From: Nymphaea colorata
Taxonomy: Eukaryota > Streptophyta > Magnoliopsida > Nymphaeales > Nymphaeaceae
Length of the DNA stretch: 64,000 bases
Assembly: GCF_008831285.2 (NCBI RefSeq)
Contig: NC_045145.1
Span: 10,662,802 to 10,726,801, forward strand
Direction: 5' to 3'
The position numbers were made by a program, and so were the translations under genes. Position 1 is the stretch's first letter. Each line of letters starts with the position of its first letter. Below the pieces are notes generated by a model, which was not told the origin of the DNA, did no database searches, and saw only the letters and a list, made by a program, of their open reading frames with translations. This document shows positions 1,439 to 62,526 of the stretch, one piece after another.

Positions 1439-2040
1439 TGAAACAGTCTACGGTGCAGTGGTTGGGGGAGAATGTCACTATGGGAGAGTGTGCATCCTTC
1501 CAATCTCCTAATGGTCATTTTTTAGAATTCCAGAGTGAAAATGTTTGGAACCAAGTGCAATGGTTAGATTTTTCATTGCCAATTTGATAAAATTGGAGTT
1601 TGACGAAACTGGTATGAATTTCAAATATTTGAATTTTATTCCTGCTCTACAGAAAATTTTGGACAAGCAAACATACCCAAAGAGTTCTGACCACAGATAA
1701 AACTCCGACCTCGTCTCGTCGTTTTCTTCCGCTATATTTTATTTCTTTTTTGTTCATTCCCTTCTTTATATTTTCTTCATTTTTTCGTTGAGCAGATGGA
1801 ACTAAAATGTAGCTAGATGGGCTTGTGTCAGGTGAAAAAGCAGAGATGGAGAGCAAGAAAACATAGAAAATTACATAAGAACAAAAGAGGAAATATTTGA
1901 TTCTCTCTTTTTGTCTTATTATTTTTTTATAGAGAAATGTTTTGGTGGGGAACGGGGAAAACCCGATCAGACTTTGGGATTTGTACTCTCAAGAAGAGAT
2001 ATGCTTGATAGTGTGGTTCAGATTTTTTTCCCCCCATTAA
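1439..2040. other. No gene recognised
   Basis: AT-rich sequence with only short chance open frames. I see no domain, tRNA or terminal repeat. Confidence 0.6.
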
Positions 2041-2059
2041 TTGGGCATAAAAGCTTTCT

Positions 2060-2600
2060 GCCGTAGAATGCAAAGCCTGGTTCATGAGCTTAAAGGAGTT
2101 CAGCTCGAGCTTGGGCATAGTCCACCGAGTCGAGGTCGAGCTACCTTTTCAAAGCTCGACTCCAGTTCTAGCTGAGCATTATATGAGGGGGCTCATGTAC
2201 ATCGATCAGGGTTGGTGAGCTAAGGGTATTTGGAGATGTCAACAAACCTGAGCATTATATGAGGGGGCTCATGTACATCAATCAGGGTTATGAGCTAAGG
2301 GCAATTGCAGATGTCAACAAAGAATTATGAATAGCAAATGCCGGGCTGTCGTCGGGTACTTCATAGTCGGCCCGACTTAGGCCCAAGAAAACATGACCCG
2401 GGCTGGCCCGATAAGCTCTGATCGGGTTGATAATAATTTTTTTTATTAATATATATATATATATATATATTATATTTAAAAAATATCTTTTTTTTAATGT
2501 AATTGAGTCGAGCTAGAACTCAAGTTTTCAAGCCCGAGTTTTAGATGTCCGACTGGCTCGGGTCTAACTCGTTATTAAACCGGATCGACCCTTGGCCCAA
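2060..2600. repeat. Remnants of GAGCTCGAGC-rich and GGCCCG-rich small repeats
   Basis: Two plant-repeat vocabularies sit side by side: AGCTCGAGCTTGGG-like words at about 2100-2170 and 2500-2580, and GGCCCGAC/GGCCCGAT words at about 2340-2430. They flank an (AT)n core near 2449-2472. The first vocabulary matches the better-delimited hAT MITE at 52389-52860. No clear ends or target duplications were found, so this is called only as repeat remnants. Confidence 0.5.
2174..2321. repeat. 76-bp tandem duplication
   Basis: A unit starting GAGCATTATATGAGGGGG occurs at 2174 and at 2250. The copies differ by a few substitutions and small indels, and both end in GATGTCAACAAA. Confidence 0.9.
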
Positions 2601-2623
2601 GGGAAGCGAATTTGTGACAATAA

Positions 2624-2639
2624 GGCCACGTTTGATGGC
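2624..2639 (+). repeat. Harbinger left terminal inverted repeat
   Basis: GGCCACGTTTGATGGC, 16 of 16 bases complementary to the right end. Target-site TAA precedes it. Confidence 0.92.
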
Positions 2640-2690
2640 TGGGGGAAAGACTGTTGAAGAGGAAAAACATGAAAAAAATGTACGATTTCA

Positions 2691-2792
2691 ACCGGTGTTA
2701 TCAAACACCGGTAACTTTTTCCGGGTAAAAAGGTTGATCCAGGGTAATTTTTCCCTGGAAAAAAGTCGGACCCTCCAGGGTCCGACTTTTTT
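2691..2792. repeat. Left subterminal hairpins of the Harbinger element
   Basis: Three palindromes in about 100 bp. ACCGGTGTT (2691-2699) pairs with 2704-2712 around loop ATCA. TCCAGGG (2738-2744) pairs with 2753-2759. The 16-base arm 2759-2774, containing GTCGGACCCT, pairs with 2777-2792. They are candidates for transposase or ORF1 binding sites. Confidence 0.8.
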
Positions 2793-2985
2793 GCGCAGAT
2801 AAATTTTTTGCCCGTTAGGGCTTCCTCCTCACTCTTGATCCTGTTTGATCACTCGCCTGACCGCTCGCTGTGCTCTCCACCACCGCCGCTGCTCTGCCTC
2901 TCGCCCGACCGCTCGCTGTGCTCTCCACCACCGCCGCTGCTCTGCCCAGTTGAGCCGTCGTGGTCTTCCGAAGAAGTTGAGGTAC
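2754..2985 (+). repeat. Harbinger leader, first copy; probable 5'-UTR exon
   Basis: Contains the GTCGGACCCT hairpin, then GCCCGTTAGGGCTTCCTC, then a GC-rich part with an internally duplicated CTCTCCACCACCGCCGCTGC unit. It ends at GAAGAAGTTGAG before a GTACGC splice-donor-like site (2982). The same order of elements recurs at 8315-8550. I read it as a promoter-proximal, first non-coding exon of the transposon genes. The short open frames here look like chance. Confidence 0.65.
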
Positions 2986-5276
2986 GCTGTTGTCTCTCTC
3001 CCTATTCTGCGTTCTCCCTATTCTATGATGATGAAGATTTTATGTTCAGAGGACAGGGAGGCATGTGATGATGGTGATGAGTCTGACGCCATGCTCGGCA
3101 TCCCCTTTATGATCATCATCATCATGCAAACGCCCAAAACGCTTTTTATCCTGCTTTCTTTCCATGATTGTCTTTGCAGATAACCCTCGCTATCTCTTGC
3201 TCTCTCTGTTTTTTCCTCTTTATATATATTCATTCCCCTCGTTCATTCCCTCCATGTCTTCCACATCCCCTCTACTGTTTCCCTCTTTTCCTCTCAGAAA
3301 TTTTGAGCTTGGATTGTTTCAGATAAAAGTAGGAGAAGTTGCCATCCCCTCTTTTGCTTCTTTTTGATATATTTTATATTTTCACCGTTCAAACCTCATG
3401 GTTCGTTTGTTAACTGCTCTTCTTTGTCATGGGCTTTTGTTGTTCACTTATTTCTTTCTTTTCCGATTCTTCATTGAGTTGGGTTGGGTTTCCCTACATG
3501 AAGATAATAACTCATTCTGCCTTTTGGCATGGGCTTTTTGTATACTTCTTTCGTTGGTTTCTGTTTTTCTTTTTCATCTGTCTTAATGCTGGTATGCTTA
3601 GCACATAGCTTCACCACATTTATGAAGTCTGTCACCGTGTTTTGGGCTTTTGGCAGATGTAAGAATCTTGTGTGCAAATATTACATAATGCTATGACAGA
3701 CTTTATCTAATTTCCCCCGGTAGCATTGGTCCCCAAGTGTGACCCTCTTCTTAAATGCACGAAACTGTCCCCACTAGTATCCATTTTTCTTCTGATAACA
3801 ATAAAAAAAATATGTCTCATTCAGCGGTTTGGAGACCCATTTAATGCTCACTGCTATTATGAAGAGAGAAGTACCTTGTTAGAATTCTAATCCTGCTAAC
3901 TCCCACAGTTCAGTTTCATTATAGGCTGTAAGATGTTGTTGTAGGGTACTCGAGAAGGTTTTTCTGCTGATATCTGTTCTTGTTTTAAGAACTTTTCAAC
4001 ATAATTTAGGAATTGAATCATATATAAAAGTCAGCTCTCCTGGATTTGGTTTTCTATCTGATTTCTTAAGATCTCAATGCGCCAGAACAACTGGTAGATT
4101 TAGATATGATCGTCTCATTCACATTCTTCCAGGCCCCATAGGACCTCATTACCAAACCTATTAACTTCAACTTTGGGACATCTCTTTGAGAGTTAGTGGA
4201 ATGGGACCTGCAGTCCCACCTTGTCCTGTTTTCATTGACGTGGAAGGGGACCCATTAGGAGTTCATCTTGTCCTATAAACTGGTTGAGAGAGGGAGGAGG
4301 GAGAAGAGGCAAGGCAGAGATGATTGGGGTATTGCCCATAGCAGTGCAACAGGAGATTGAATAATTTTTATACATTCATGAAGTTGACGCCCGTTACCAA
4401 TCACTGCGACCTCCCTTTCTCCAACCTGGTAATGAATTCCTAGAATCTTATGTTGCACGCAGACTTTGAACATTCACCTAAATCTGCTTATGTTGGAAGT
4501 ATATTGAAAACTGGCTTTCCTTGGAGCAATACATTTTATCAAAGCAGAATAATGTCTGAGCCATGCTTTCTTCTTTAAAATATCTGAACTTTCTAGTTAC
4601 ATGAACTTTTGAAACATGCTTTTTTTCTTGAACATGACTCTGCCAATCCTTTAAATATCAGCAAGGTTAGCCTTCTAGCCGAAACAAGAATTCTGTTCCT
4701 GGATACGTAGACATGATTCCTTATACATTCATAGTTTCATACACTCAAACCTGCGTTTAAAAATTTTTTTCTTCAATTCTGACTTTTATTTCTTGCTTGT
4801 CGCCTCAGCTATAATTTATTGGTCATCCATAATGCCAGTTCTGCTCAAAGAAACTGGATATGATAGACATTCACCTAGTTGATCCCGAAAAAATCTGAAA
4901 ACCAGCAATATTTTGTATTGCTCATCGAGATCAATATGAATGATAAACGTTGGTATCAATGGGGTCTTTGCATCTTTTACATATTTTTCCTACCACCAAC
5001 CTCTGTACCCATAGTAGTATAGTTGTTTGATATTAAAAATTTTGATGAAAATTCATTTGAGCAGAACTGGCATATTTTAAATATTTTTGATGAAAATTCA
5101 CATTTTAATTTATTGGTTTATTAATGCACGTGCATGTGTGATAAAAAAACTGTTTGTTATTGGCCAGTCATTATTCTTACAATTGAAAATGCAAGTTAGT
5201 ATTGTCAATTTTGTTTACACATACGTTTTCATATTCAATGTTGTAGTTGTGAAGGAATATTGTGCAAATCATTAAC
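2986..5276 (+). other. Harbinger internal region upstream of ORF1, probably leader intron
   Basis: About 2.3 kb of T-rich, stop-rich sequence between a donor-like site after the leader exon and the ORF1 ATG. An acceptor-like TGTTGTAG lies about 35 bases before the ATG. I recognise no protein domain or further captured exon here. Confidence 0.5.
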
Positions 5277-6274
5277 ATGGAGGATAGTGGTACATCAAGG
5301 GAGAATCTTACATGGACTGAAGCACAAATGGACTACTTAGTCCAGCTTCTTTTGGAGCAATCACGCATTCCTGGTATGAAGTCTGGTGGAGGTTTGAAGG
5401 CAAAAGCATACACAGCAATAGAAAGAAGCATGATAGACCGCTTCGGAAGGGACTTCACTAAGGACAAAATAAAAAATAAACTGAAATATGCAAAACCAAA
5501 CTTGACAGTGTTGAAGGAAATGATGAACACAAGCGGGTTTGGATATGACCCTACTAACAAATGCATTGAAGTTGACCCCCAGGTTTGGAGTGAGTACATT
5601 GAGGTATGTTAAAGAAATCGTAATTTTAGGTTTTGTCTTACGTGTCTTTTTTTCTGTAAATGTTGAACCTATTAAAATTTTTTCAGAAATACCCTAATAG
5701 AAAAAAGTACAAAGGACCAAAGTTTTGGAGATACTATGATGAGTTTCTTGAGATATTTGGTGATTCTCACGCAACTGGGAACACAGCAGACACGTGCAAC
5801 AGCATGTTATTAGAGGATATTATTGAACCATTCCCAACAACACCTGCTTCCCAATCGACTCCATTTCACATGGAACCTGAAAATACACAATCATTCACAC
5901 AGATGCTTCATGAAGATAGTCCTTCAATACAATCGCCAACATCTGCAACTCCTACACCTCAACATCCCACCATGACAACCAACAGGACTACAAATAGGTC
6001 TAAAAGGAACAGGTCAGACTATGATGAAGAATACTATAATTTGTTGCACCGTATTGCTGACGATGTGCATACCATGACAAATGGAAGTAAAGGGGTTCAA
6101 TTTGTCCAGTGTTGTGAAATACTTCAAGAATTGGTTGAGACAGGACAAATTGATTCTGAAACACATGTGAAGAGTTTTGATTTGTTGGCTGAGGGCACGA
6201 ACCCCATGATCTTCGTCAATATTCCATCTTCACAACGGGTGCCATGGTTGACACGTAAACTGAATGGGTCGTAG
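5277..6274 (+). CDS. Harbinger ORF1: Myb/SANT-like DNA-binding protein
   Basis: Accessory protein that in PIF/Harbinger elements binds DNA and helps the transposase act in the nucleus. Two exons, 5277-5603 and 5687-6274, joined in phase 0 across a GTATGT...TTTCAG intron, give 304 residues. Residues about 8-109 form a Myb/SANT-like fold: LTWTEAQMDYLVQLLLEQ, then the helix around FGRDFTKDKIKNKLK, then VWSEYIE. A KYPNRKKYKGPKFWRYYDEF motif follows just after the intron. The middle is Ser/Thr/Pro-rich with a basic NRSKRNRSDYDEE stretch. The C-terminus (SFDLLAEGTN...VPWLTRKL) resembles that of the host gene at 38.3-39.3 kb. An upstream GTG is in frame, but the ATG at 5277 is the first methionine. 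No frameshift is seen. Confidence 0.88.
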
Positions 6275-6548
6275 GTAAGAACTCATTGTTAATTATATGT
6301 TCAACGGTACATTAGTTGCACATTGCTCATTTTATATATGTTCCATCTATTATTTTGTGTCTTATGTGTTATTGGATGAAGTTTGCAATGGTTGTTTTTT
6401 ATGTATTCATGTTCTTTAAGTATTCATGTTGACTGTATTAGCAAATGCATTGTTTTTGGATGATGTTTGCAATGGTTGTTTGTACACTTTTTTTCACGAC
6501 ATGTTCTTCAATATTTTTTGTTATTATGTTTCATGCAGTTTAGTTGAA

Positions 6549-7893
6549 ATGGCTGACATCGACATGTTCTATGATGACGAAGAACTAGAGTGTTATTTGA
6601 TTCGGATAGTGTTCGTCTTCATCTTTTTTTGGTTAAGACAACTACCTCATACTAGGAGGATTGTTCATCCCTTTCGAGAAGCTGGTTCTTCTTTTGTTCA
6701 ACTCATGCTTGAAGGTCATCCTAGAAATTGTATGGACTTACTTCGCATGGATCGGCACACATATATGACATTGTGTACCACTCTCAAAACTAGGAATTTA
6801 TTGGAGGATGCTCGTGAGATTAGTCTAGAAGAACAAGTAGCTATATTTTTATTGACCATTGGACATAATGAACGCAATCGTGCAACTCAGAATACGTTTC
6901 AACATTCTGGACAAACAATAAGTAAATATGTCAGCCTTGTCCTACGAGCATTATGTATATTGGGTAGGGATTTCATCCGGCGCCCCAACATTGAGATGCC
7001 AAGTAGTATTCGGCGATCTGAAAGATTTTTTCCATATTTTCAGGTATTTTCATAAACGTAAACATTTTATGACACGTGCATATATGTCTAACCAGTATAT
7101 ATACTATATAGGATTGCTTAGGTGCAATCGATGGCACCCATGTACCTGCATGGGTCTCAGCGTCAGATCAAGCAAGATTTCGCAATAGAAAAGGAGTCAT
7201 TTCTCAAAATGTCATGGCTGTAGTTGGATTCGACACTCGATTCCACTACGTCTTGGCGGGATGGGAAGGAAGTGCAACAGACTCAAGAGTATTATACAAT
7301 GCACTTGATCATCCAACTGACCCATTTGTTGTGCCAGAAGGTACGTACTTCCACTCAACATTGCATACCTTCTTATGGGCATTTCACAAACTTTTACGAA
7401 TTTGTGTTCACTTGTAGGAAAATATTATCTTGCTGATGGGGGTTATCCAAACATTGTCGGTTTGCTAACACCTTATCGAGGGCATCGATATCATATGTCT
7501 GAATTTAGTGCACCAGGGGCACGCACACCTAGAACTCAAGAGGAATTATTCAACCATAGGCATTCATCACTACGAAATGTAGTAGAAAGAACTTTCGGCA
7601 TGTTGAAAGGACGTTTTCCAATACTAAAAATGCAAGTGCACTATCCATTGAAAAAACAAGTTCAAATTGTTCTTGCTACGTGTGTACTGCACAACTTCAT
7701 AATTGAACACAATCCGAATGCCGAACAATTTGTTGATGAAGAAACTCAGTCGAATGATAATGTTTTCTTAAGCGAACCAGAAATCGCAAGACAAACACAT
7801 CAACGAGGAAGCAACAATCTTCTGAGAACAGCTATAACAGGTCAAATGTTTACAGATTATCAGTTGAATAGTAAGTTCATTTATCAGTTATAA
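6549..7893 (+). CDS. PIF/Harbinger transposase (DDE_Tnp_4 nuclease)
   Basis: Catalyses excision and insertion of the element. Three exons are inferred from clean splice sites: 6549-7043, 7112-7340 and 7418-7893, giving about 399 residues. An N-terminal helix-turn-helix-like part (EEQVAIFLLTIGHNERNR, then FQHSGQTISKYVSLVLRAL) precedes the catalytic core. The DDE triad is visible: D172 in GAIDGTHVPAWV, D222 in GWEGSATDSRVL, and E298 in SSLRNVVERTFGMLKGRFPIL. The LADGGYPN and VLHNFIIEHN signatures of the family are also present. The reading frame is open throughout, which is unusual among the broken elements of this window. The 3' end could instead be spliced at GTAAGT near 7871 to an acceptor near 7978, changing only the tail. 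Confidence 0.9.
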
Positions 7894-8314
7894 CGAAGTT
7901 CATTTATCAGTTATTTGTTGATGTATAACAAGTTAAATGTTTAATGTATGTTTGACATCTACTTTGTTTTTAAATAGGACAACGAAGATGAAGCATCAAC
8001 ATATATATTACAACGAAGATGAAGCATCTATTTTGTTTTGTGATGAAGCATCTATTTTGTAAAGTGCAGCAAAGAACAAGAAGATTACAATGAAGATGAA
8101 GCATCTATTTTAAGATTGTCTGTTTTGTTTTTTGGATGTATACTCTTTAAACTCATATACTAGATGGGTAACCAATACTTTTTTGGATGTGAACTAACAA
8201 TATGGGCACCTACTTGAATGTTGGACAATACTCTTTAATGTATATTCCGCCCAAGTTTCTGTATAAATGTATATATGTTATCAACTCTTTCTTTTCTTGT
8301 TGATTGCTTATGGG
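7894..8314 (+). other. 3' part of the transposase unit, short imperfect repeats
   Basis: Contains several imperfect copies of AACGAAGATGAAGCATCTATTTT (at about 8015-8110) and T-rich sequence up to the second leader copy. No coding domain. Likely the transposase 3'-UTR. Confidence 0.5.
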
Positions 8315-8550
8315 CCTGGAAAAAAGTCGGACCCTGAAGGGTCCGACTTTTTGGCGGAGACAAATTTTCTGCCCGTTAGGGCTTCCTCATCACCATCATT
8401 CGCTTCAGCCTCCAGCCGTCGTCCGCTCGCCATGCTCTCCACCACCGCCGCTGCTCTGCCTCCAGTCGTCGTCCGCTCACCGTGCTCTCCACCACTACCG
8501 CTGCTCTGCCTCCAGCCGTCGTCGTGGTATTTCGAAGAAGTTGAGGTACG
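8315..8550 (+). repeat. Harbinger leader, second internal copy (direct repeat)
   Basis: Recapitulates 2754-2985 in the same orientation: GTCGGACCCT hairpin, GCCCGTTAGGGCTTCCTC, duplicated GC-rich CTCTCCACCACCGCCGCTGC-type unit, and GAAGAAGTTGAG|GTACGCC. It lacks a terminal inverted repeat on its left. This suggests recombination between two copies of the family rather than a nested transposition. Confidence 0.82.
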
Positions 8551-8669
8551 CCATCCCTATATGCATATTTTGATGATGGCCTGTGGCCCTACCTTCCTTG
8601 AATCAGGCCATTGTATCTGGGGTCGCAAGAGTAGCCTTTGGTAAGAATTATGTTTGGGACATGTTAATT

Positions 8670-9594
8670 TAAAGAGTGCACTTTTCTGGGTCAGCATTTA
8701 TCACTGCAAACGTTTGTGTCATGATTTTTGTCATCATAGCGGGTAGTGTCCTTGGATTTCAAAGTGGATGGCCTGGTTATGCCCTTTCCAATGGGTAAGG
8801 GAAAAGTGCACTCTAGATGGTTATGCACTTTTAACTTTTTCTCCTATATGCATTGGAACTATTTTTATGAGAAATTCTCAATTCATTTCTTGGTTTTGTT
8901 GAAGGTGGTTGAAGCTGGAGATTTAATCTATGTTCTTGTTGTGGTTCTAGGTACTTTCCTTTTGGAGTTAATGGGATGCTTGCTGGATCCGCTACTGTTT
9001 TCTTTGCATATATAGGCTTTGATGCGGTTGCAAACACGGCTGAGGAGGTATATTGCTATTTACATAATTATGAATGTCATTCAACCCATTTTTGCTTCAT
9101 TCCATGTGACAAAAATTTTTGAAGTTGGATATAGCAGAAACAATTCGTTATTAACTTTCATAGGCACTTGTTAGTCAAAGCTTTTATTGTAAATATAGCC
9201 TGATATTTGTAGTCAGTTCACTTCATGCTTGACGCTCATCCTATCTTGCAGGTGAAGAATCCACAACGTGATTTGCCATTGGGAATTGGAAAGGGATTTT
9301 ATCCCTAGCTGTGTCTTGTACATGCAGGTATCTGTGGTTATAGTTGGTTTGGTGCCTTATTATGCAATGGATCCTGACACACCAATTTCATCTGCTTTCT
9401 CCAGCCATGGGATGCAGTGGACAGTGTAAGTCAGCTTTAATGGAAATCGTGTGGTTTTTTGTAGGTTAGCCAAATGACTGTGGTTGGCTTAATTCATCTG
9501 CGTTTTGTTTTAGGTACATTATCACTGCCGGTGCAATTACTTACTGCTCTCTGTGCAACATTGTTGGGTTCAATCCTTTCCCAGGCAAGTTCTT
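8670..9594 (+). pseudogene. Captured fragment of a cationic amino acid transporter (CAT family)
   Basis: Four exon pieces with intact-looking introns. About 8690-8794 reads ...VCVMIFVIIAGSVLGFQSGW. 8951-9047 reads YFPFGVNGMLAGSATVFFAY then IGFDAVANTAEE. 9252-9425 reads VKNPQRDLPLGIG, then VGLVPYYAMDPDTPISSAF. 9514-9594 reads YIITAGA. This is the contiguous middle of plant CAT permeases, which carry basic amino acids across membranes. The piece is dead: a one-base deletion at about 9304 breaks the third exon, the fourth shifts frame at once, and there is no start or C-terminus. Introns are retained, so it was copied from DNA, not mRNA. It lies wholly inside the Harbinger element. Confidence 0.87.
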
Positions 9595-9775
9595 CGCAGC
9601 TTGAAAATATAGTTAACCAATGAGATTGCATACCATTGGAATTATTTAGTAATCATGTATTTGCTTGTTTTTTGTCCTGTACATGTAAAACATGTGTTGG
9701 AAACAACGTTAACGATTTGTTTTAGGAGCATTAATCTTTGTTTAAACTAATGTTTCTGTATTCCATAACTTGTAG

Positions 9776-9865
9776 ATGATTCCAGTGGCTTTGAACGATG
9801 TAGCGTTTTCAACACACGCGGTTTTGTTGACAGGATTCACAGTTTTGCAAGTTTTAATCTATGAA
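9776..9865 (+). pseudogene. Captured exon of a cystinosin-like (lysosomal cystine transporter) gene
   Basis: A 90-bp open exon bounded by TGTAG and GTAATT. It reads MIPVALNDVAFSTHAVLLTG followed by FTVLQVLIYE. I recognise this as the conserved segment of plant cystinosin homologues around the NDVAFS-HAV motif, in a PQ-loop protein that exports cystine from the vacuole or lysosome. No other cystinosin exon was found nearby, so it is a single-exon fragment. It lies 180 bp after the amino acid transporter fragment, and the two genes are unrelated. Confidence 0.78.
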
Positions 9866-10153
9866 GTAATTGGATCATCTAACGGAACCTTCTTTTTTTC
9901 CTGTCTTCTCCTGGTTTTCGTGCAGTTTTATAGAGGATGGCTTGTTATCAATTTTAATAGATGATGTTTACAACTTTCTAGCGTTTATGTTGTACATTAC
10001 AAAGGGTTTTATGTAATAACTCTATTATTGAATGGCTTTAAATATTTTTTCCATGGCTGAATTGCATATCTATGTGTAGGTGGTGGACGGTCAATTGCAG
10101 TTTTTGACCATGACAAAAAACGGTCAAAAAATTTTTCCTTGAAAAAATTTTCT

Positions 10154-10244
10154 TGCCTAACAAACTAGGCATTTTTTCCTTTGGAAAAAAGTTCCAGACC
10201 ATCAAACATGGTCTGAAACAAGAAGAAGGGAATTTTACCCTTCT
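10154..10244. repeat. Right subterminal hairpins of the Harbinger element
   Basis: TGCCTA (10154-10159) pairs with 10166-10171 around loop ACAAAC. CAGACCAT (10195-10202) pairs with 10208-10215 around CAAAC. AGAAGGG (10224-10230) pairs with 10238-10244. The CAAAC loop word is shared with the terminal repeat and the left hairpin. Confidence 0.78.
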
Positions 10245-10300
10245 GTCATTTTTTCAGGGTAAAATTACCGTAGAAAAAGTTCCCCCTCTAAAAAATCGGT

Positions 10301-10316
10301 GCCATCAAACGTGGCC
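10301..10316 (-). repeat. Harbinger right terminal inverted repeat
   Basis: GCCATCAAACGTGGCC followed by target-site TAA. Exact complement of the left end. Confidence 0.92.
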
Positions 10317-10319
10317 TAA

Positions 10320-22741: not shown

Positions 22742-24360
22742 TTATTACACAAATTAGTTAAGTCATACCGACAAAAGACTTGACAAATATAGCAAAAAGT
22801 AACAAATGGTAAAAATATATTTAGTAATCATTCATTGAGTTTGTGGTTCAGTCTAAACTTTAGTCTGATGATCATTGACAAAATGTTAAAGAAAAATACC
22901 AAAAGCCAATATTTCATGTAACATGTCATGTATATCTTCAATAAAATTAACTTGTCAAAAGACTCTCAAAATATTTCATGTAACATGTCATGTATATCTT
23001 CAATAAAATTAATTTGCCAAAAGACTCAAAATATTTCTAAGCAGATGAGTTCCAGCACCAACAAAATGATTGTCTAGTGGCCTAAAGTTGCCAAGGTTTG
23101 ATAAGGTCCTTATTTGTGTCTTCTCTGTCACTTGGTTTGCCACATTTCCTTGGTCCTAGTCCAACTACCCTTGCACTTCTACGTGATAGTAAGTTGAAGG
23201 TTGAACTGCCCAATTGCACGTAGTACAATGATTGAGAAATAGTAGATGCTACAAAAGAGAAAGGGGAAGAAGGGATGTGCATTGACCATGTAATGAGGCT
23301 GATATGGACCACCTTGTAACATTGGATGATTGCTTAGTCATTCCATGCAAGATGCTAATTGATGGCAATGTCTTCATATAATAAATACCTACCTGTTGAA
23401 GATACACATCTCCAAAACATAGTAAGGGCCGTAAGGCATACTTTCGAGCCTTACATGTTATACAGGAACTATTCATGAAAAGAAAACATAGGCATTGCTG
23501 AATGTGTTTCTTGTTGTAAATGACAAAAGAAACCTGGTAAGGGAAAACAACAAAGAAAGCCTAGACGTGGCACCAGTAGAAATGGAAAAGCTAACTGGTG
23601 TACGTGTAAGCAGTAAAGGTCTGTCAAGAGATCGGAAAAACTGGAATATGAAGAGATGGGAATGTCTATGTATATGTATATACACATAATAAACATAGAT
23701 AGATGATGAAATTCTCATTCAGCTATTTATCATTTTAGAAAATCTGTTCTGCCTTTCTACTGCAGTAGCTAAGTAACATGGACTCTTCAAAACTGTGGCT
23801 GCACCTGAGTCGTGTTGGGTGAAGCAACAAGCAAATTGCTTTAATTTTAATTGAATCATTGACCAAGCCATAGTTTGTTAGTCATTAATTGTTGTTTTTA
23901 TTACTTGTGAACAATTTATTGTTTGTTTTTTATGTTTGTAGACAACATATAGATAATGAATATATCTATCCTCACTGCACCTGCACCCATGTTTTTTTAA
24001 AAAGCGCCCACCCACACTAGCATCGATACCTCACACCTGTGTGACATATAGGTAAATATATAAAATCAATTGCCTAAGATACATCTATCTGGTTGTGAGG
24101 TTATTTTAAATATTTAGTGAGTTTGAATCTAAAACCCTACTTGATCTCTAAGTCTAAAACATGCAGTACTTTTGTAGTATGATTGATCTTGCCTTATCGG
24201 TGCCAATGGTATACATGCCATTTCTAGATAATAAGCATCCTTTGGTTTCCATCTTGTTCTATTTTTTTACTAAAAACCTTGGCCTCTTGTTGCATGCTAG
24301 ACGACACAACAGATCTTTAACATGTGCTTGCGTTCTGTTCTCATGTGTTTTCATGTTCAG
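22742..24360. other. No gene recognised; 62-bp tandem duplication at 22909-23034
   Basis: The unit ATTTCATGTAACATGTCATG...AAAAGACTC occurs twice. The rest contains short open frames on both strands around 23080-23720 that match no family I know. An upstream exon of the Myb/SANT gene could lie here or further left but was not identified. Confidence 0.5.
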
Positions 24361-25015
24361 ATCTGCAGCAGAAAGGAATGGAGGGCCCAGCTGTGGGTCG
24401 TAACAGAAAGAACATAAGTTGGACACCACTTATGGATGACTATTTCATTAACCTCATGGTAAAAGAGGTTCACAGAGGCACAAAGGTAGAAAATTCGTTT
24501 GCCAAGCATGGTTGGAGCCACATGGAGAGATTGTTTCAGCAAAAATTTGGAGCTCTTTACAACAAGGACTGTATGAAAAATCGTGTAAAGACTTTAAAGA
24601 AGCAATACAATGCTATAAAATCTCTATGTGAACAAAGTGGAATTGTTTGGAATCATGAGTCTCAAATGTTAGTAGTCAATGATGAGGCTACATGGGAAGC
24701 TTATAGCAAGGTGTGTCATGTACAAATTATATCATTATATGTGATTTAGTAGTATAAAGATTGTTAGTAGCTAAGACCTAGTATTGCAGGATCATCCTGA
24801 AGTGCAAAAGTATAGAGATAGGTGCATACCACATTATGAAGATCTATATCTTATATTCTCATATATCCCTGCTGATGAAGAAGACAATATTGTCGGAGCT
24901 TCTGCAAAAGGGGTTAGTACAGAGGTGGAAACCATGGATATGCGTGCTTCACCTATATCTTATGCTCATGATTATATACTTGATGATGTGCGAGGTTCAC
25001 CCTCGTCAAAATCAG
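24361..25015 (+). CDS. Myb/SANT-like domain protein (L10-interacting MYB / At2g24960 type), first module
   Basis: Probable nuclear DNA-binding protein of the plant family derived from Harbinger ORF1. Exon 24361-24710 starts after TTCAG and encodes NISWTPLMDDYFINLMVKEV then WSHMERLFQQKFG...WEAYSK. Exon 24790-25015 (after TTGCAG) begins DHPEVQKYRDRCIPHYEDL. An ATG at 24378 may be the start. The open frame also reaches the acceptor in phase 1, so a further 5' exon is possible. The second exon ends in phase 1 at TCAG|GTGATG. The exon at 38330 supplies exactly the two bases needed, so both modules are joined here as one gene across a 13.3-kb intron. No stop or frameshift within the module. A separate truncated gene is the alternative. 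Confidence 0.72.
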
Positions 25016-26043: not shown

Positions 26044-29000
26044 CAATGTTGTAAAACACGTATCGTAAGCCGTATCGGTCGGGCTTTAAGATATGCCGTA
26101 AGTATCGTAATTTTTTTTTAAAAAATAATAATAAATCAGAAAAAATATAAAAAAATCGAAAAATTCATAAAAAAAATCAGAAAAAATTAAAAATAATAAA
26201 TTCTTCATAGAAAACATGTTTTAGATAATGATAGACTTATTATTGCTAAATGCTATAAACTTACGCGTTCACGGTTCATCATTCATACTTCATAGACATC
26301 AAAATTCATAACAATATCATTCAATTTCAATCAGCAAAGCATAAGCCATAAAGTGATAAAACATTCAAGTGTTCAACAACCATAGATTCATAACTCTTAA
26401 GTCATTCGATACATATAATGATTCATCATTCATAATCTTCATCATCTTCGTCTTCATCTTCTTCTTCATCTTCATCGTCAAGAATTGAAAGATCCTCGCC
26501 AACATATTCAGCAGCAGCAGTAGCACTAGCAGACTCTCCTTCATCAACAAAGCCTTTTGTTGCTTCAGCTTCAAGGTTGAAGCATTCAAGATTTTCATCA
26601 TCAAATATTGTAGCTGGTTCTTCCTCAATCCATGGCTCTAGATCGTCAAAGTTTTCCAAGCTGATAGGATCGAACTGAGATGTGTGCTTCCTTGCTGCTG
26701 TTTTTTGTAATTCTCTACGTTACATAAGAGAAAACTTGTTAATATATAATTTCATATAAGTATATTGTACAAAAAATGTAAACATTAAGCTATATTACCT
26801 TTGTTTCAACCTCATATTATATCGAACAAAGACAAGGTCATTCAACCTTTTATGTTCGAGCCTATTCCTTTTTTTGCTATGGATATGTTGGAACACACTC
26901 CAGTTCCTTTCGCATCCACTAGTACTGCATGTTTGGCTGAGGACTTTGATTGCAAAACGTGCTAGGTTTGGACAATCAAACCCATACCTATTCCACCACA
27001 AATCTAAACAAAAATATATATAACATTATAACAAATCAATGTGAAAGTTCTAAAAGAATCAAATGTAACAAATGCAAAGTAATTTAAAGTTATTAAACAT
27101 TTATATGTATTTACCTGGATGCATGGTTGTCCTGGCTCAAACAGTGACAGGTTGTCCCATGCCCCGATAAGAAGTATCATATAGATCCAACTCATTGCTG
27201 ACGGCATCTTGTTCTCTAGAATCTGCCACTAACACGTTAATACAATCCAACAAACCACACAAGACTTCTCTGTCCTTCTTAAAATGTAGGAGAAAATCTA
27301 ATTGCAGGATTTAGATAGTAAGCTGCTGCATGAAGAGGTTGATGAAGCTGTCCAGTCCACCTTTTATCTATCATCTTCCATATGGGTATATATAACTTTT
27401 TCTTTCCTTTTAAGTTGTTTCGAATTGTCTCTTTTGCTTTATCCATGGCCTCATATAAGTACCATACGGAAGACCTATCCTCGTCGTCAGCTAACCTGAG
27501 GACTTTCACTAATGGAACACAGACCTTCAATAGCTTCAGACATGATTCCCAAAATTCGTTATTAAATATGATATCCACAACTAAAGAAGCATTTCTTTTA
27601 TGAGCATGTGGATATGCAGCCCATTCTTCACTAGCGAACATCTGCCTCAAAGTAGTTCTTTGTTTCACTACACTCTGCACAATCAATACATTTGTGGCAA
27701 ATCTAGTTTGTGCAGGTCGTATCAATTCAACTCTTTTTGTAAACTTTCTCATCAAACTCAATACATATGCATGATTATAGATAAATTTTGTTACCTCTTG
27801 ACATTGGTCAATGGCTGATTTCATATCATGCATCTCATTAAGATCTTGAAGCATAAGATTAACACAATGAGTGACACATGAACTCCAAAAAAACATTTCA
27901 TACTTTTGAAATAACAAATTTCCTGCAGCTTTATAATTTGCAACATTATCTGTAATAAATTGTACAATGTTTGCAGATCCAACTTCTTGTACGACATTAT
28001 CAAAAACATTGAACAAAATCTTAGCAGTGTTAGGAACATCAGACAAGTTAAGAGATTTCAAGAACATTGTACCTTTAGGGCAATAAACAAGAAAATTTAC
28101 AAGTGTTCTTAACCTTGTATTAGTCCATCTGTTTGACATAATGGAGCAACCTGTTTCCTTCCAAGATAATTTCAATTGATCGCAATGTTCAGACACTTCT
28201 TTCACCGTATCTTGAAGAATTTTACTCTTCAACTGATGATATGATGACATTTGAATCCGGGGCCTATAGAAGCAATTGCATCTGCCATGGCTTGGAATTG
28301 AAAAGAATTAGCTGCATTAAATGAAATACATGCATCATAAAACCATTTCCCTACCATCTTTTGTGCTTGATATAACATATCTTTAGATGTCATAGCAGCA
28401 CGAATCTGCGGCTGACCACTTGGACTAGTATCACGCCTAGCCCCAATATCTGTTGTGCCTCTTCTCTTCCTGTTATGTCAGATCGACCTCCTTCATACAT
28501 GATCCCTTTTCCTCTACGATCTCTACCTCTTGAGGTCTCCAAATCTGTTCTTAGACTGCTATCATCTTCATCATCACATTCATAAGCTTCTTCCTCTTCT
28601 TCTTCATCTTCCAAAGGCTCATTATAGCCTACATCAGCCTCTTCAATTTCTTTTTGTATCTTCTTTTGACGTAAAGCATGAAACATATCTAAACATTGCT
28701 GACGCACAAATGGAGGCAAAGGTTTGTTTGGTCCTCCAACACAAGGAGACACATCTTTGGAGGTCCCTGCCAAATGGTGTTTCATTCTACTAATCCCTCC
28801 TGAAAATGTATTCCCACAAAAGCTACATTTGAGTTTCAAGCGGTTATTCTCCTTCACCTTTTCGCACCATTGCCATGTAGGATCCATATCTTCAAAAAAA
28901 AAAAAAAAAAAAAAAAAACGAAATCCTATGGTAAACTTAATGAAAAACATTCAAAATCTTTCAATCTACGATTGTACGGTAAAAAATTATAAATATATGG

Positions 29001-38077: not shown

Positions 38078-38329
38078 TCAATTTTTTAATAATTGGTCTG
38101 CACCCTCTACCCATGCCTGCATCCATGTGACAATTAAAATCGTTCGACAAACTTGGTTTTACCATCAAAACAAGTATCTTCAATATGGTCTTGGACTCTT
38201 GATGTTAGTACCTGATTTTTAGTGTAATCAAATGGATTGTTTCATGCTATTGAGTATAAAATAATATGCTTCCACAAATTCATTTGGATATTTTTCACTT
38301 TCTTATGTACAAGAATAATGGGTTTACAG

Positions 38330-39339
38330 GTAGTGAAGGGACAGAAAGCCCAGCCACCAATCGTGATAGGAAGAAATTGAATTGGACTCCGCTCATGGAT
38401 CGTTATTTCATAAGTCTTATGGTAGAAGAAGTTCACAGAGGTACCAGGAATGATGACTCATTCAGTACGCATGGTTGGAACCGTATAGAGAGGGAATTTC
38501 AGAAGAGATTTGGCATTCAATTCCATAGGGACTCAATGAGAGTTCGGCTAGAGAGTTTAAGAAAGCAGTTTAATTGCATGAAGACCTTAAGTGAGGAAAG
38601 AGGATTTGTTTGGAATCATGAGATACAAATGATCACAGCTTCTGATGAGAGCTTGTGGGATGACTACACGAAGGTCTCTTATTTTTCATGTTTCCAGACT
38701 CGGTAGTAACATAGGAAGATAAAGTTGCAGATATTTTTGACATGTTGATGAATGCAGGTACACCCTGAAGCACGTGAATACAAAGGTACAAAACTACCAT
38801 ATTATGAAGATCTGTGTTCTATATTTTCTCCTCTGATTGTCAATGGAAGATACAACACAACAGGGGCTGATCTTCACAGAAAAGAAATTGTCCTTGCTAT
38901 GGAAGCTGTTAGAGCTGCTGGACATCCATTATCTTCCCTTATATCTAGTGGTCGTGGACATCAAGCCAATGGTGTACAAGACTCATCAGAATTGGCTGTG
39001 GATAAAGATATATCAAACAAGCGAAGGAAGCATTTATGTGTGACCCCACCAAGTTTAGATTGTTCAAGGAAATCTTATGCAGTTACTTGTGATGTGGTGA
39101 AAGCTCTTCAGCAGATGGCAGCTGCTGTTAATGGCTTAGCAAGTGCATTTAAAGAGGTCAAGAACTGTCAACTTGTAGAGAAGTATATTTCTGCTCTCAG
39201 TGAGATACCTGGCATGGATCCAGATCTCTTTTTAGCTGCTTGTGATCTTCTGGAGGATGAAAGAAAAGCTAGGACATTTTTAGCACTTAACATGGACCTA
39301 CGGAAGAGATGGTTGATTAAAAAGCTTCGTCCTTTCTAA
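38330..39339 (+). CDS. Myb/SANT-like domain protein, second module and C-terminus
   Basis: Exon 38330-38673 follows TTTACAG and encodes KLNWTPLMDRYFISLMVEEV, WNRIEREFQKRFG and SLWDDYTK. Exon 38758-39339 follows AATGCAG and encodes VHPEAREYKGTKLPYYEDL, a linker with a basic NKRRKH patch (possible nuclear signal), and the C-terminal ISALSEIPGMDPDLFLAACD / MDLRKRWLIKKLRPF region. The stop is at 39337. Frames are open and the splice sites are canonical. The first two bases complete the phase-1 codon left at 25015. Each module has an intron just before the D/VHPE motif, at the same place as in the Harbinger ORF1 (E|KYPN). Plant proteins of this layout include the L10-interacting MYB and At2g24960 groups. 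The precise orthologue is unknown. Confidence 0.82.
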
Positions 39340-57488: not shown

Positions 57489-58240
57489 CGGCGTGTCTGA
57501 TTCGCGTTTTGTTTCTGTTGTGGTCGTGTGAGAGGAGGACTCGTGCCGGCACTGTTCATTGACCATCGCCCGACGCCGTGCCGTTAGTGTTTGCTGCCCG
57601 ATGGGGACGCGGTCATCGCCCGACGCTGTTGGTGTTCAGGCATCTATTCCAACAACTCACTCGGCGCCGTTGGAGTTCCGGCGTCTTTTCTAGCGCCTCA
57701 CTCGACGCCGTTGGAGCTCCGGCGACGCCTCGACGCCCTCTGGAGTTCTTTCCGGAGACTCTGTTTCTGCCCTGCTTGCCGCTGTGAAGCTCCGGTGGAC
57801 CTCGACGAAGGCTGTTGTGCCCGACGGTGCATCTTCTGGCTGCATCGCCTGAGAACGTTGCCGCCGCCGCCCCCAGCGTCTCCAACTGCGTCGCCCGTTG
57901 TTACTCCATCGCCTGGTGGAGTCCCTGCGTCGCCCGGTGGAGTCCCAGCGTCACCAGCTGTTGCCGCCCTGCCGCTGCCTAGCCTCTGCCGCCCTGCTTC
58001 TGACGCTCCGCCCTGCTGCCTCAGCGTCGCCCGACGCTCCTTGTCGCCCTGTTGCCTCAACGTCGCCCGACGCTCCCTGTCCGTTGCTTCTTGCCCCCCC
58101 TTCACCGTCTGCCTTGCCTGCTGCCTTGCCTTGCCTGCTTCATCGTCTGCCGTTGTGCCTTGCCTTGCCTACTTCATCGTCTGCCGCTGCTCGCTGCTAC
58201 TGTTCCTTTTCTGCTCTCTTTATAGCGCTGGTCTGTGATT
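57489..58240 (+). other. GC-rich leader between primer site and gag
   Basis: About 700 bp much richer in GC than its surroundings, with TCGCCCGACGC recurring near 57567, 57616, 58025 and 58061 and a CCTGGTGGAGTCCC-type repeat near 57912-57945. Overlapping open frames on both strands are composition artefacts. It may hold packaging or translation signals, or be acquired sequence. Confidence 0.6.
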
Positions 58241-59278
58241 ATGGCAGCGTCTTCCTCGTCCACCGTCAACACTGATCAATCTGAAATTGGGTCTTATAGA
58301 CCTGAGAATGTTCCCGTTCAAGTCACAACTATTCGCCTTACCAAGGAGAACTATGTCTCGTGGTCGGCTGCTATGACTATGGGGATTGCAGGCCGCGGTC
58401 GGATTGCCTATATCAATGGAAGAAAACCTGAACTGGCAGAGACAAGTGGTGTGTGGGACACTTGGTTTCTTGAGGATAATCAAGTAAAAACTTGGATTGT
58501 CAACTCTGTTTCAGCTGATATCCAACCCCTTATTCTTCGAAAGAAGACTGCGAGAGACATGTGGGTGATTTTGGAGCAAATGTATGGCCAGAAGAAAACA
58601 ACTATCCGGACTTACCAACTCATGAAGACTGTCTATGGAATTCGTCAAAGGAACTTATCTGTTGCAGATTATTATGGGGCTTTGAAAGCCAAGTGGGAGG
58701 TTCTTGATTATTATTATGACATTAAGTGGCATTGTCCTTATGATCAGGCACTTCATGTTGCTAAAGAGTGGGAAAATAGGGTGTTCCTCTTATTAGCTGG
58801 TTTAAATGATGAGTTTGAAGGTGTTAGAAGCCAGATTCTGAATTCAGGAGAAGTGTCGAGTATTGAGGATGTGTATTCTCGTGTTGAAGCTGAAGAACAG
58901 AGGAGGCTGGTTACTGCTGGGGGAAAGAGAAATCTCATGTCATATAATGAGAGATCTGCTCTTGTTAGTCGGGGTCCTGGACGCACCACTAGATCTCTTC
59001 GTAGATGTACTCATTGCAAGAAGAATGGTCATACTGTGGATTTTTGTTGGGGTCTTCATCCCGAGAAAAAGGGTAACAAAGGGAAATCATCTAATGGGAA
59101 GCCGACTGTCTCTGAGGAGACAAAATCTAGTGGAGGAAAGATCTCCATTTCTGCTGAACAACTTCGGGAACTGAGGGCTTATTTGGGTCGGATCGATGTC
59201 AATCAGGTTGAGGCATCAGATGAGATAAAGGCTAGTCATGCTCTTGCCATTGTAGGGATAAAGGTAACTCTTGTGTAG
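58241..59278 (+). CDS. Copia Gag polyprotein region
   Basis: Forms the retrotransposon particle and binds element RNA. Open from ATG 58241 for 345 residues. The N-terminus has the plant Copia gag layout (LTKENYVSWSAAMTM, then TARDMWVILEQMYG). The zinc knuckle CTHCKKNGHTVDFCW (CX2CX4HX4C) is near residue 260. It ends at 59278, where the protease frame begins one base shifted. In intact Copia elements gag and pol are usually one frame, so this is more likely a single-base lesion than programmed frameshifting, though the latter cannot be excluded. Confidence 0.88.
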   Translation: MAASSSSTVNTDQSEIGSYRPENVPVQVTTIRLTKENYVSWSAAMTMGIAGRGRIAYINGRKPELAETSGVWDTWFLEDNQVKTWIVNSVSADIQPLILRKKTARDMWVILEQMYGQKKTTIRTYQLMKTVYGIRQRNLSVADYYGALKAKWEVLDYYYDIKWHCPYDQALHVAKEWENRVFLLLAGLNDEFEGVRSQILNSGEVSSIEDVYSRVEAEEQRRLVTAGGKRNLMSYNERSALVSRGPGRTTRSLRRCTHCKKNGHTVDFCWGLHPEKKGNKGKSSNGKPTVSEETKSSGGKISISAEQLRELRAYLGRIDVNQVEASDEIKASHALAIVGIKVTLV

Positions 59279-59280
59279 GG

Positions 59281-62200
59281 GAATGGATTGTGGACAGTGG
59301 TGCTACTCACCACATGACGGGTAACCCTAAATTGTTTCATGAGTATAAGTTGTCTTCTGGAAGGGAACGTGCATCTCTTGCAGATGGTTCCTCTACATCT
59401 GTGGCCAGAGAAGGGAGTTTGTCCTTGTTGGACAAATTTCATGTGCGAAGAGCATTACATGTCTCTCAGTTTCCCTTAAATCTCTTGTCAGTCAGTAAAC
59501 TTACTAAAGAGTTGAATTGTGAACTCATCTTTTCTGCAACTCGTTGTATTTTGCAGGACTTGGCGACAGGGAAGAGGATTGAGATTGGTTTGGCGTCTGA
59601 TGACTTATATCGTCTTCCCATACGCGTGGCCACGGCTCTTGTGACAGCGATCAGCATGACAGAAAAGCACAGAGAAGATTGTCTTCAGTCCTTCTTGTAT
59701 TGGCATGAACGCCTTGGGCATTTACCTTTTGGGATTTTGAAACAGTTGTTTCCCGATTTGTGTTCCACTCTGAATTTGTCGTTGATTTCTTGTGATGTAT
59801 GTCAGTTTGCCAAACATGTGAGGGCTTCGTACCCTATTTCTACTAGTCGTGTTAATGAAGCTTTTTCCTTGGTTCACTCTGATGTGTGGGGGCCTTCGGG
59901 AATTCATACCCGTCAAAGTTTTCAATATTTTATAACTTTTATTGATGACTTCTCTCGGACCACCTTTGTGTACTTGTTAAAGGATCGAAGTGAGGTACCT
60001 CATATCATAGAAACCTTCATTCTACTTGTGCAAACTCAATATGGTGGAACGGTTAAACCTTTCGGTCGGATAATGCCCGTGAGTATATGTGTCAGCCAGT
60101 TGAGGAGTTCTTTCGAAAAAAGGGGATTGTTCACGAGACGTCCTGTAGTTATACTCCCCCACAAAACGGGGTGGCTGAGAGAAAGAATCGCCAGCTCCTT
60201 AATGTCACCAGAGCCCTTTTATTTCAGAGGAATCTTCCAAAGCACTATTGGGGTGATGCAGTTCTCACTAGTGTGTATCTCATCAACCGCATGCCCAGTT
60301 GTGTGTTGAATGGTCGGACTCCCCATTCTTTAATTTCGAGAAGTCGTCAACCTTTTCTCCTCCCTCCTCGTGTTTTTGGCTGGGTGTGTTTTATTCATGA
60401 TCACAGTCCCAATGTCAAGAAACTTGATCCCCGGTCTATTAAGGGTGTGTTTGTTGGGTATTCTCCTACTCAGAAAGGGTATAAGTGTTTTGATCCTACC
60501 ACTGGTCGAGTTTATGTTACACGGGATGTTACCTTCTTGGAACATGCCTCTTACTTTTGTGAGAATCCTCTTCAGGGGGAGAAGTTTGTGGTTAGGGAAG
60601 AGTATTCTCAAAGTCAGGAGATTCAATTTACAGAATTTTTAGACTATAAGAAAGGAGAACCTCTCACAGTTGTTGATGTACCTGAGAAGGAGGAAGGATG
60701 TGACACTGGAACTGAGAAGGAAGGTCATCGTTTGTTTGGACAGGTCTACTCTAGACGAGGTGCTCGGACAGAGGAGGTGACTTGTGGTGCGAGATCTACT
60801 TTCAATCCCAATGCCATTCCTTCCCTGGATGAACCAAGTCCTACCTTGAAGATTCAAGATGGGGTTGAAAAGAAAAATGAAGATCTTCCCATTGCCCTGA
60901 GGAAAGGTGTCAGGTCATGCACTCAACACCCGATTGGTAATTTTGTATCTTATTTTAGACTTAGCAAAGATTACAAGTGTTTTGTATCTTCTCTTTCTTT
61001 GGCTGTGATTTCCAGGACCGTTGCTGAAGCTCAAAGTGATTCCAAGTGGGCGGATGCTATGAAAGAAGAAATGGAAGCCTTGAGAAGAAACATGTCATGG
61101 GAAGTTGTGGAGATTCCTGAGGCAGCTCACTTGGTTGGATCCAAGTGGGTGTATACCATTAAGTACAAACCCGATGGAAGTGTTGAAAGATACAAAGCTC
61201 GTCTTGTGGCCAAGGGGTTTAGTAAAAAATATGAGATTGATTATTTAGAGACTTTTGCTCCAGTTGCAAAAATGAAGACAGTTAGAGTTGTTATGTCTCA
61301 ATGAGTGGAGGATGTACCAACTCGATGTTAAGAATGCTTTTCTCAATGGTGATCTCGAAGAAGAAGTGTATATGCATATGCCCCCAGGATATGAAGAATC
61401 AGAGAATTGCTGTAAGCTAAAAAAGGCTTTATATGGCCTCAAGCAGTCGCCTAGAGCATGGTTCGAACGACTCCGACGAGTGATGCAACATCATGGGTAC
61501 AATCAAAGGAATGGAGACCACACTCTATTTGTGAAGAAAAAGGAGGGCAGAGTCACACTTTTACTTGTATATGTTGATGACATGATTGTCACGGATGATG
61601 ATGAGGAGATCTTCAAGTTAAAAGTGTTACTGGCTACTGAATTTGATCTCAAGGATCTTGGCAAACTGAAGTATTTTCTTGGTATTGAGATTGCTAGATC
61701 TAGTATTGGCCTTGTACTAAACCAAAGGAAATATACATTAGATCTATTGGAGGAGACTGGTAAACTGAGATGTAGACCCGCTTCTACCCCACTTGATACT
61801 GGACACAAGCTAAGCCTTAAAGATGGAGAGCTGCTCTGTGAAGAAGTTAAGGGAAGATATCAACGTCTGGTTGGAAAGTTGATTTATCTTACCCTTACAA
61901 GACCAGATATTACGTTTGCGGTGAATGTACTGAGTCAGTTCATGCATGCATCTACTGATATACACCTGAAGGCTGTGGACAAAATATTGTGCTATTTGAA
62001 GAGAAATCCTGGCAAGGGACTCTTGTATGTGAAACAAGAGAATGTAGAGATTGAGGGATACTCCGATGCAGACTGGGCAGGTTGTGCTGATACCAGACGG
62101 TCTACCACAGGATATTGTGTCTACTTGGGAGGAAATCTTGTTGTCTGGAGGAGCAAGAGGCAGGATGTGTGTTCTCGATCTAGTGCAGAGGCAGAGTATA

Positions 62201-62526
62201 GAGCCATTGCTATGGGAGTGTCAGAGTTGCTATGGCTGAAAATATTGCTGACTGATATCGGAATAAAGGTTGAAGGGCCAATGAAGATGTATTGTGACAA
62301 CAAGTCTGCAATCAACTTAGCCAATAACCCTGTTCTACACGACAGAACAAAGCATGTTGAGATTGATCATCACTTCATTGCTAAAGAGTTAATTTTACCT
62401 TACATGAAGTCTGAAGACCAAACCGCTGATATTCTGACGAAAGCTCTATCTTCAACTTCATTCGAGAGAAATGTATCCAAGTTGGGCATGTTTGATATGT
62501 ATGCCCAACTTGAGGGGGAGTGTTGA
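59281..62526 (+). pseudogene. Copia Pol: protease, integrase, reverse transcriptase, RNase H; at least two internal frameshifts
   Basis: Protease WIVDSGATHHMTG begins at 59284. GAG-pre-integrase YWHERLGHLPFGIL is near 59700. The integrase core runs HSDVWGPSG (59875), FITFIDDFSR and TPPQNGVAERKNR (60151). RT has KWVYTIKYKPDGSVERYKAR (61144), YQLDVKNAFLNGDLEEEVYM (61315), LYGLKQSPRAWF and VYVDDMIVT (61570). RNase H has GYSDADWAGCADTRRSTTGY and SAEAEYRAIAMG, and the tail ends inside the 3' LTR at 62526. Frame changes at about 60056 (integrase) and about 61295 (start of RT) break an otherwise well-kept pol, so the copy is non-autonomous but recent. Confidence 0.92.
62511..62520 (+). promoter_or_regulatory. 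Polypurine tract of Copia copy 2
   Basis: TGAGGGGGAG immediately before the 3' LTR, the same sequence as in Copia copy 1. Confidence 0.9.

Follow-up and report, generated by a model that had tools for sequence, protein, structure and literature searches.

Transposons that carry pieces of host genes are known already, and two coding members of the PIF/Harbinger superfamily come close to the element considered here, which lies at positions 2621–10319 of a 64,000-nucleotide stretch of the Nymphaea colorata genome (NC_045145.1, positions 10,662,802 to 10,726,801, forward strand; hereafter the window, to which coordinates without a contig prefix refer). In the available text of the report on the grapevine PIF element Pifvine-3 (Benjak et al. 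2008, PMC2528002), several copies combine ORF1, a transposase and transduplicated host exons and introns, as the window element does. The additional DNA of Pifvine-3 is, however, a long 5′ region, and fusion with a non-coding relative is not described in that text. The Caenorhabditis elegans Harbinger Turmoil-1 (Sela et al. 2008, PMC2572040) likewise couples a transposase to two unrelated captured coding pieces, one of them with an intron, but the available part of the paper places these within 760-bp inverted repeats and gives one full-length copy. The preliminary description of the window element, made from its sequence alone, had called a coding Harbinger with host fragments much less familiar; as Pifvine-3 and Turmoil-1 illustrate, that combination is already in print.

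Pack-TYPE elements hold captured gene DNA between terminal inverted repeats (TIRs), and their definition, in the accessible text of Gisby and Catoni 2022 (PMC8903248), includes being non-autonomous and free of transposase. The same text describes stepwise gain of gene pieces and the fusion of two neighbours into AB or BB forms for Zm-Pack-PIF cluster 18 and Os-Pack-Mariner cluster 217, so that fusion of neighbouring Pack elements is a published (Catoni) model. Unlike the window element, these examples are a few hundred bp long and non-autonomous. Since the pipeline, as set out there, classes any transposase-matching element as autonomous, a fusion of a coding with a Pack element would not be listed as Pack-TYPE. 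Transposase-bearing CACTA elements with captured pieces appear in the available part of PMC8978399, and gene capture is the subject of a 2026 review (PMC13317346, likewise available in part). In the open-licence literature, a search that left subscription journals mostly outside, we found no description of a fusion between a coding and a Pack element. What is new here is such a fusion with its near-parents, its donors and its later transposition all visible in one assembly. The element is thus no new kind but an unusually clear instance, a well-resolved case of gene cargo meeting a transposase, in which two near-parents, three donor loci, the joining point and a subsequent transposition can be traced. 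It leaves the known chemistry of the superfamily unchanged.

A coding head and a gene-carrying tail

The element is 7,693 bp long, and the interval 2621–10319 includes its TAA target-site duplication. As the preliminary description had it, the ends read from the sequence are perfect 16-bp TIRs, at 2624–2639 on the plus strand and 10301–10316 on the minus strand, flanked by TAA at 2621–2623 and 10317–10319; a repeat listing gives 2623–2639/10301–10317, whose additional base belongs to the TAA. ORF1 (5277–6274, plus strand; exons 5277–5603 and 5687–6274) encodes 304 amino acids with a Myb/SANT-like DNA-binding domain (Pfam Myb_DNA-bind_3, PF12776, 2.2e-15, 57.8 bits against a cut-off of 23.6). 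The separate DDE transposase (6549–7893, plus strand; exons 6549–7043, 7112–7340 and 7418–7893) is open over 399 amino acids and covers the full DDE_Tnp_4 profile (PF13359, 5.7e-25, 88.2 bits against 24.8). Exon limits are those of a splice model picked by GT-AG, in which neither gene has an internal stop, and this together with the Pfam matches above cut-off bears out the earlier claim of an open ORF1 and transposase. D172, D222 and E298 of the transposase are placed by motif as the putative DDE triad. With short TIRs, a 3-bp duplication (TAA here, TCA in the second copy described below), a DDE_Tnp_4-type transposase and an ORF1 of this type, the element belongs to PIF/Harbinger, and it is possibly autonomous judging from its open frames.

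Within this one pair of ends lie two parts of different affinity. The head (approximately 2624–8314, the first 5.7 kb) is nearest to L010, a coding relative on contig C2 of 6,291 bp with TAA on both sides, in a genome search of 407.8 Mb in 783 contigs. L010 matches 2621–4599 at 95.0%, 4975–8317 at 97.3% and 10025–10319 at 89.2%, with the ORF1 and transposase block at 98.7%. It has no match to 8552–10024 and hence neither a cationic amino acid transporter (CAT) nor a cystinosin piece. The tail (approximately 8315–10316, the last 2.0 kb) is nearest to L034 and L037. L034 is a complete Pack-type element of 2,966 bp (C8:3389346–3392311), with TTA on both sides when read by eye and a left TIR with 4 mismatches; nothing in it matches ORF1 or transposase, and, unlike the window element, it is transposase-free, as Pack-TYPE elements are by definition. 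L034 matches 8553–9720 at 92.3%, 9715–10317 at 96.0% and the tail leader module, a repeated segment described below, at 92.5% over 159 and 95.2% over 42 positions. L037/L038, a second place on C8, is the closest in the CAT block (97.1% for L037, 91.5% for L034), and 9721–10316 is 96.0% identical to L034 and 95.8% to L037. The right end of the window element accordingly resembles L034/L037 (93–95%) and differs from that of L010 (89.2%).

The two parts meet at 8315–8317, where CCT is common to both sides. Just beyond begins a second leader module (8315–8551, plus strand), part of the Pack-type tail, whose first part and left TIR are missing. It repeats the head leader module at 2754–2987 (plus strand), with similarity stopping at GTTGAG/GTACGC (GT at 2982); the two are 82% alike, and other family members are closer to 8315–8551 than its own head is. 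A scan of the C3 copy (L009), which has the same structure, found no inner TIR at up to 3 mismatches. The arrangement is therefore that of two family members in tandem with outer TIRs kept and inner ends lost. Compared with L034 the tail lacks approximately 0.58 kb, with 8 bp shared at 8553–8560, and approximately 0.35 kb, with 6 bp shared at 9715–9720. Both are CAT- and cystinosin-gene DNA that L034 retains, about 0.9 kb of interior together, and both gaps are consistent with deletions.

The tail agrees with L034 in its right end and in the order of its three gene pieces (CAT, cystinosin, WD40-like), all of them oriented like the transposase. At 8702–9720 (plus strand) a CAT4-like vacuolar cationic amino acid transporter piece with introns kept is 94.2% identical to C1:19812703–19813719. 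In the surrounding locus (C1:19812200–19814500) the CAT exons continue on either side of the shared stretch and match vacuolar cationic amino acid transporter 4 (PDB 9hjk) at 2.4e-70. The cystinosin-homologue piece, one exon plus intron (9715–9913, plus strand), is 93.0% identical to C2:7002378–7002578; C2:7001900–7003000 runs on into the next cystinosin exon, and the donor exons match a cystinosin homologue (PDB 7zk1) at 1.5e-25. In L034, CAT-gene DNA gives way to cystinosin-gene DNA near its position 2333–2335. A third piece at 9968–10115 (plus strand) is 92.6% identical to C10:15559390–15559533, where C10:15557000–15559800 runs on into a WD40-like exon at 24.6 bits, just under the Pfam cut-off of 27; the captured C10 exon by itself has no Pfam or PDB match. 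The C10 gene may be DmX-like, although only the WD40-like label, itself below the Pfam cut-off, is supported. No source for 8553–8701 was found outside L034 and L037 among the best 40 of 188 candidates. The captured gene DNA between TIRs, with donors located, is what defines the Pack-TYPE cargo; an open transposase places the window element outside that definition.

The preliminary description had put a CAT piece at 8.67–9.59 kb and a cystinosin exon at 9.776–9.865 kb. Alignment to the host genes on C1 and C2 shows both to be real and longer than stated, and the third piece had been missed. That third donor also bears on the suggestion that the shared amino-acid theme of the donors may be chance: being WD40-like, it makes chance look the better reading, and a functional link between donors is unneeded. 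The reading frame of the CAT piece is broken by small indels relative to its donor, a 4-nt one among them, which speaks against function for that piece; the cystinosin exon is open, but a single exon. Separately, part of the interior of the non-coding relatives L017 and L013 reads as WD40-like (PF00400, 22.5 bits against a cut-off of 27) and may come from elsewhere in the C10 gene.

A second copy and its empty sites

The same structure occurs once more in the genome. The C3 copy is 7,694 bp long, differs from the window copy by 5 substitutions and 1 indel, and lies in a repeat with TCA on both sides and with flanks unrelated to those of the window copy. When 8300–10319 was used as query, the whole tail was covered only at the window and C3 places among the best 40 of 188 candidates. 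The C3 flanks joined through a single TCA gave 40 listed matches, 38 of which run across the site at 76–84% identity, the remaining two being the C3 flanks themselves. Four of these 38 were aligned and all are uninterrupted at the site, with TCA in three and TTG in one. A copy with its own TCA and with empty-site counterparts means that the element moved together with its cargo, and movement was recent: if 5e-9 to 1.5e-8 substitutions per site and year are assumed, the 5 seen here translate into about 20,000–65,000 years. For the window insertion the assembly offers no empty site (its joined flanks gave two matches, both its own flanks), since its site is unique and no empty copy could be found.

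Several parts of the preliminary description bear on this result. Its proposal that the TIRs delimit one insertion agrees with the empty sites at C3, the window insertion having none in the assembly. That element and host fragments are mobile as one unit is supported by the recurrence of the structure at a second place, where both the flanks and the 3-bp duplication differ. The search for further copies that it advised gave this one additional whole-structure copy and many relatives, and the assembly error that would have undone it is contradicted by the CAT and cystinosin pieces of the C3 copy, which stand between different flanks.

The window copy alone is free of stops in both ORF1 and transposase among the window, C3, L010 and L028 copies. 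In the C3 copy a nonsense change affects the final codon of transposase exon 1; ORF1 of L010 also contains a stop, and the more distant L028 carries several. Related transposase pieces are common in the genome (172 matches among the best 150 of 585 candidates, an exon-level figure and not a gene count), although identity of at least 98% in the last transposase exon was found only at the window, C3 and L010 places among the same candidates.

Probable origin of the chimera

Our data favour, with good though not complete confidence, a model in which the element is a chimera of an L010-like coding head and an L034-like Pack-type tail, joined head to tail and later transposed whole. The tail parent would have been a non-coding Pack-type element already holding the CAT4-like, cystinosin-like and WD40-like pieces. 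Joining head to tail would have cost the first element its right end and the second its left end, leaving one left and one right TIR, so that to the transposase the fusion product would be a single element. The parents most likely stood next to each other as separate insertions, and the inner ends would have been lost in a deletion at 3 bp of microhomology. As these are absent, cargo and coding region would move together, and the fused element would have transposed at least once to give the window and C3 copies. In PIF/Harbinger elements the ends are bound by ORF1 and transposase, and insertion duplicates a TNA-like target of 3 bp; here the two proteins would act on the outer ends, with excision of the element and its insertion at such a triplet. 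Because L034, which has no transposase, carries the same pieces in the same order and the near-parent L010 lacks them, the cargo appears to have come by fusion, and the coding element itself probably did not capture the pieces. Of the preliminary claim of a coding Harbinger carrying host fragments, the structure stands and capture by that element probably does not, the cargo more likely having arrived with a fused Pack-type tail.

Direct, serial capture by a coding Harbinger, with L034 and L037/L038 as later deletion derivatives, would reverse this order of events. Non-coding Harbingers are often internal deletion derivatives of coding ones, and short ORF1 remnants (5260–5353, 97–98%) persist in the non-coding L017, L020, L021 and L022, which lends this alternative some credit. 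It does not, however, predict a second and different leader module at 8315–8551 only 82% alike to the head's own, and L034 has a B-type left end. L034 also keeps the approximately 0.35 kb of cystinosin-gene and approximately 0.58 kb of CAT-gene DNA that are absent from the window element, and so is not derivable from the window element as it stands; direct capture is accordingly very unlikely. Nesting of a Pack-type element within a coding one would likewise place a second leader module inside the element, but it predicts both TIRs and a duplication followed by the right end of the host element. The absence of an inner TIR at up to 3 mismatches (L009) and a right end like that of L034/L037 (93–95%) rather than L010 effectively rule it out. 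An assembly chimera, conceivable where family members are repeated and similar, is all but excluded by the C3 copy, as the junction is common to two copies with different flanks and duplications, one of them with empty-site copies.

The closest competitor concerns the route rather than the outcome. If an excision gap was repaired with template switching or gene conversion, the resulting 3-bp junction would look like that of a microhomology deletion, and the family shares ends and interiors in many combinations. Nothing decisive speaks against it, but neighbour pairs elsewhere in the family mildly favour fusion, and we regard it as a rather unlikely source of the chimera. The relevant pairs are at L012 (C8:24215600–24225400), where two elements in the same orientation occupy reverse-complement positions 1887–5379 and 6094–9380, 715 bp apart and each flanked by TTA, and at L022 (C4:25945900–25955700), where a right-end-like motif with 3 mismatches, at reverse-complement 1092–1095, ends exactly at the TAA preceding the element. 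The latter suggests two insertions with one common TAA, and both arrangements could be starting points for fusion. Side-by-side pairs were thus seen for other family members, not for the two parents of this chimera.

Other observations weigh against the fusion of an L010-like head with an L034-like tail, or qualify it. Exact parents were not found, the candidate searches having covered the best 40 of 188 and the best 40 of 142, and the near-parents sit on different contigs (C2 and C8). The left 392 bp of the head are just 88.4% identical to L010. The tail module is closest to L017 (89.2%) in one unbroken alignment, L034 and L038 reaching 92–98% in two pieces; the unbroken alignment favours L017 because L034 and L038 differ in their internal-repeat copies. 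L037/L038 was read in part, as two stretches approximately 5.1 kb apart, and no left TIR was found there, so this place may still contain a transposase. Stops lie in the C3 transposase and in L010 ORF1, and more than one copy may have been the mover of the others. Finally, the C3 flank lacks 7 nt approximately 10 nt to the right of the site that are present in all four aligned empty copies.

A broader reading is offered tentatively, at somewhat less than even confidence. By fusion a coding Harbinger would have taken over a Pack element, rendering the cargo self-mobile and leaving two promoter-like leader modules in the same orientation, one before ORF1 and transposase and one before the CAT, cystinosin and WD40-like pieces. 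Such fusions may be a regular route to cargo autonomy, overlooked by surveys that file any transposase as autonomous. This suggests a class missed by design in Pack-TYPE surveys, whose members could be recognised by a transposase together with an internal duplicate of the leader module.

Leader modules, family relatives and neighbouring features

Both leader modules finish in GTTGAG/GTACGC. Of 22 family modules examined, 15 have this motif exactly and none departs from it by more than 1 mismatch, the conservation expected of a 5′ splice site; a candidate acceptor lies at 5245–5246 upstream of ORF1. We infer a promoter and leader role for the modules, in which case the second may serve whatever expression the cargo has. 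Tandem repeats of 48 and 50 bp in varying copy number lie in both modules (2852–2946 and 8408–8523).

The head itself may hold captured host DNA. The stretch 3025–3574 (plus strand), a candidate for this, is 88% identical to C11:2164598–2165149, a locus without family ends. The next, 3712–4460 (plus strand), is 88% identical to C9:15131716–15132441, also without family ends and 2.6 kb from an open reading frame (ORF) with a RING domain. A third, 4478–4916 (plus strand), is 72% identical to C11:19044552–19045026. Each matches one single locus, a possible donor, and transfer may have run in either direction. An ORF near the C11 locus, without a Pfam match above cut-off, may be LITTLE ZIPPER-like.

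Ends were scanned at up to 3 mismatches in 25 related loci. Both were present in 18, all 18 with identical 3-bp flanks (TTA, TAA, TCA or TAG); one or both were lacking in the other seven (L023, L025, L026, L029, L030, L032 and L033). L015 and L016, 98% alike and with the same flank, may represent one event. An inner copy of the right-end motif lies at 10198–10213 (plus strand), approximately 103 bp inside the right TIR, and many family members have an equivalent.

Across the window Rfam gave no match at gathering score. Two Myb/SANT-like ORFs, by position unrelated to the element, lie at 24321–24746 (Myb_DNA-bind_3, 5.1e-25) and 38260–39336 (C-terminal part At2g29880_C, 25.9 bits against a cut-off of 26) and may be genes derived from a Harbinger ORF1. 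On the minus strand at 27282–28950, DUF659 (2.9e-54) and zf-BED (5.5e-05) ORFs adjoin, as in hAT-like transposase genes. Long consecutive ORFs at 58226–62523 have, by eye only, the look of a Copia-type polyprotein.

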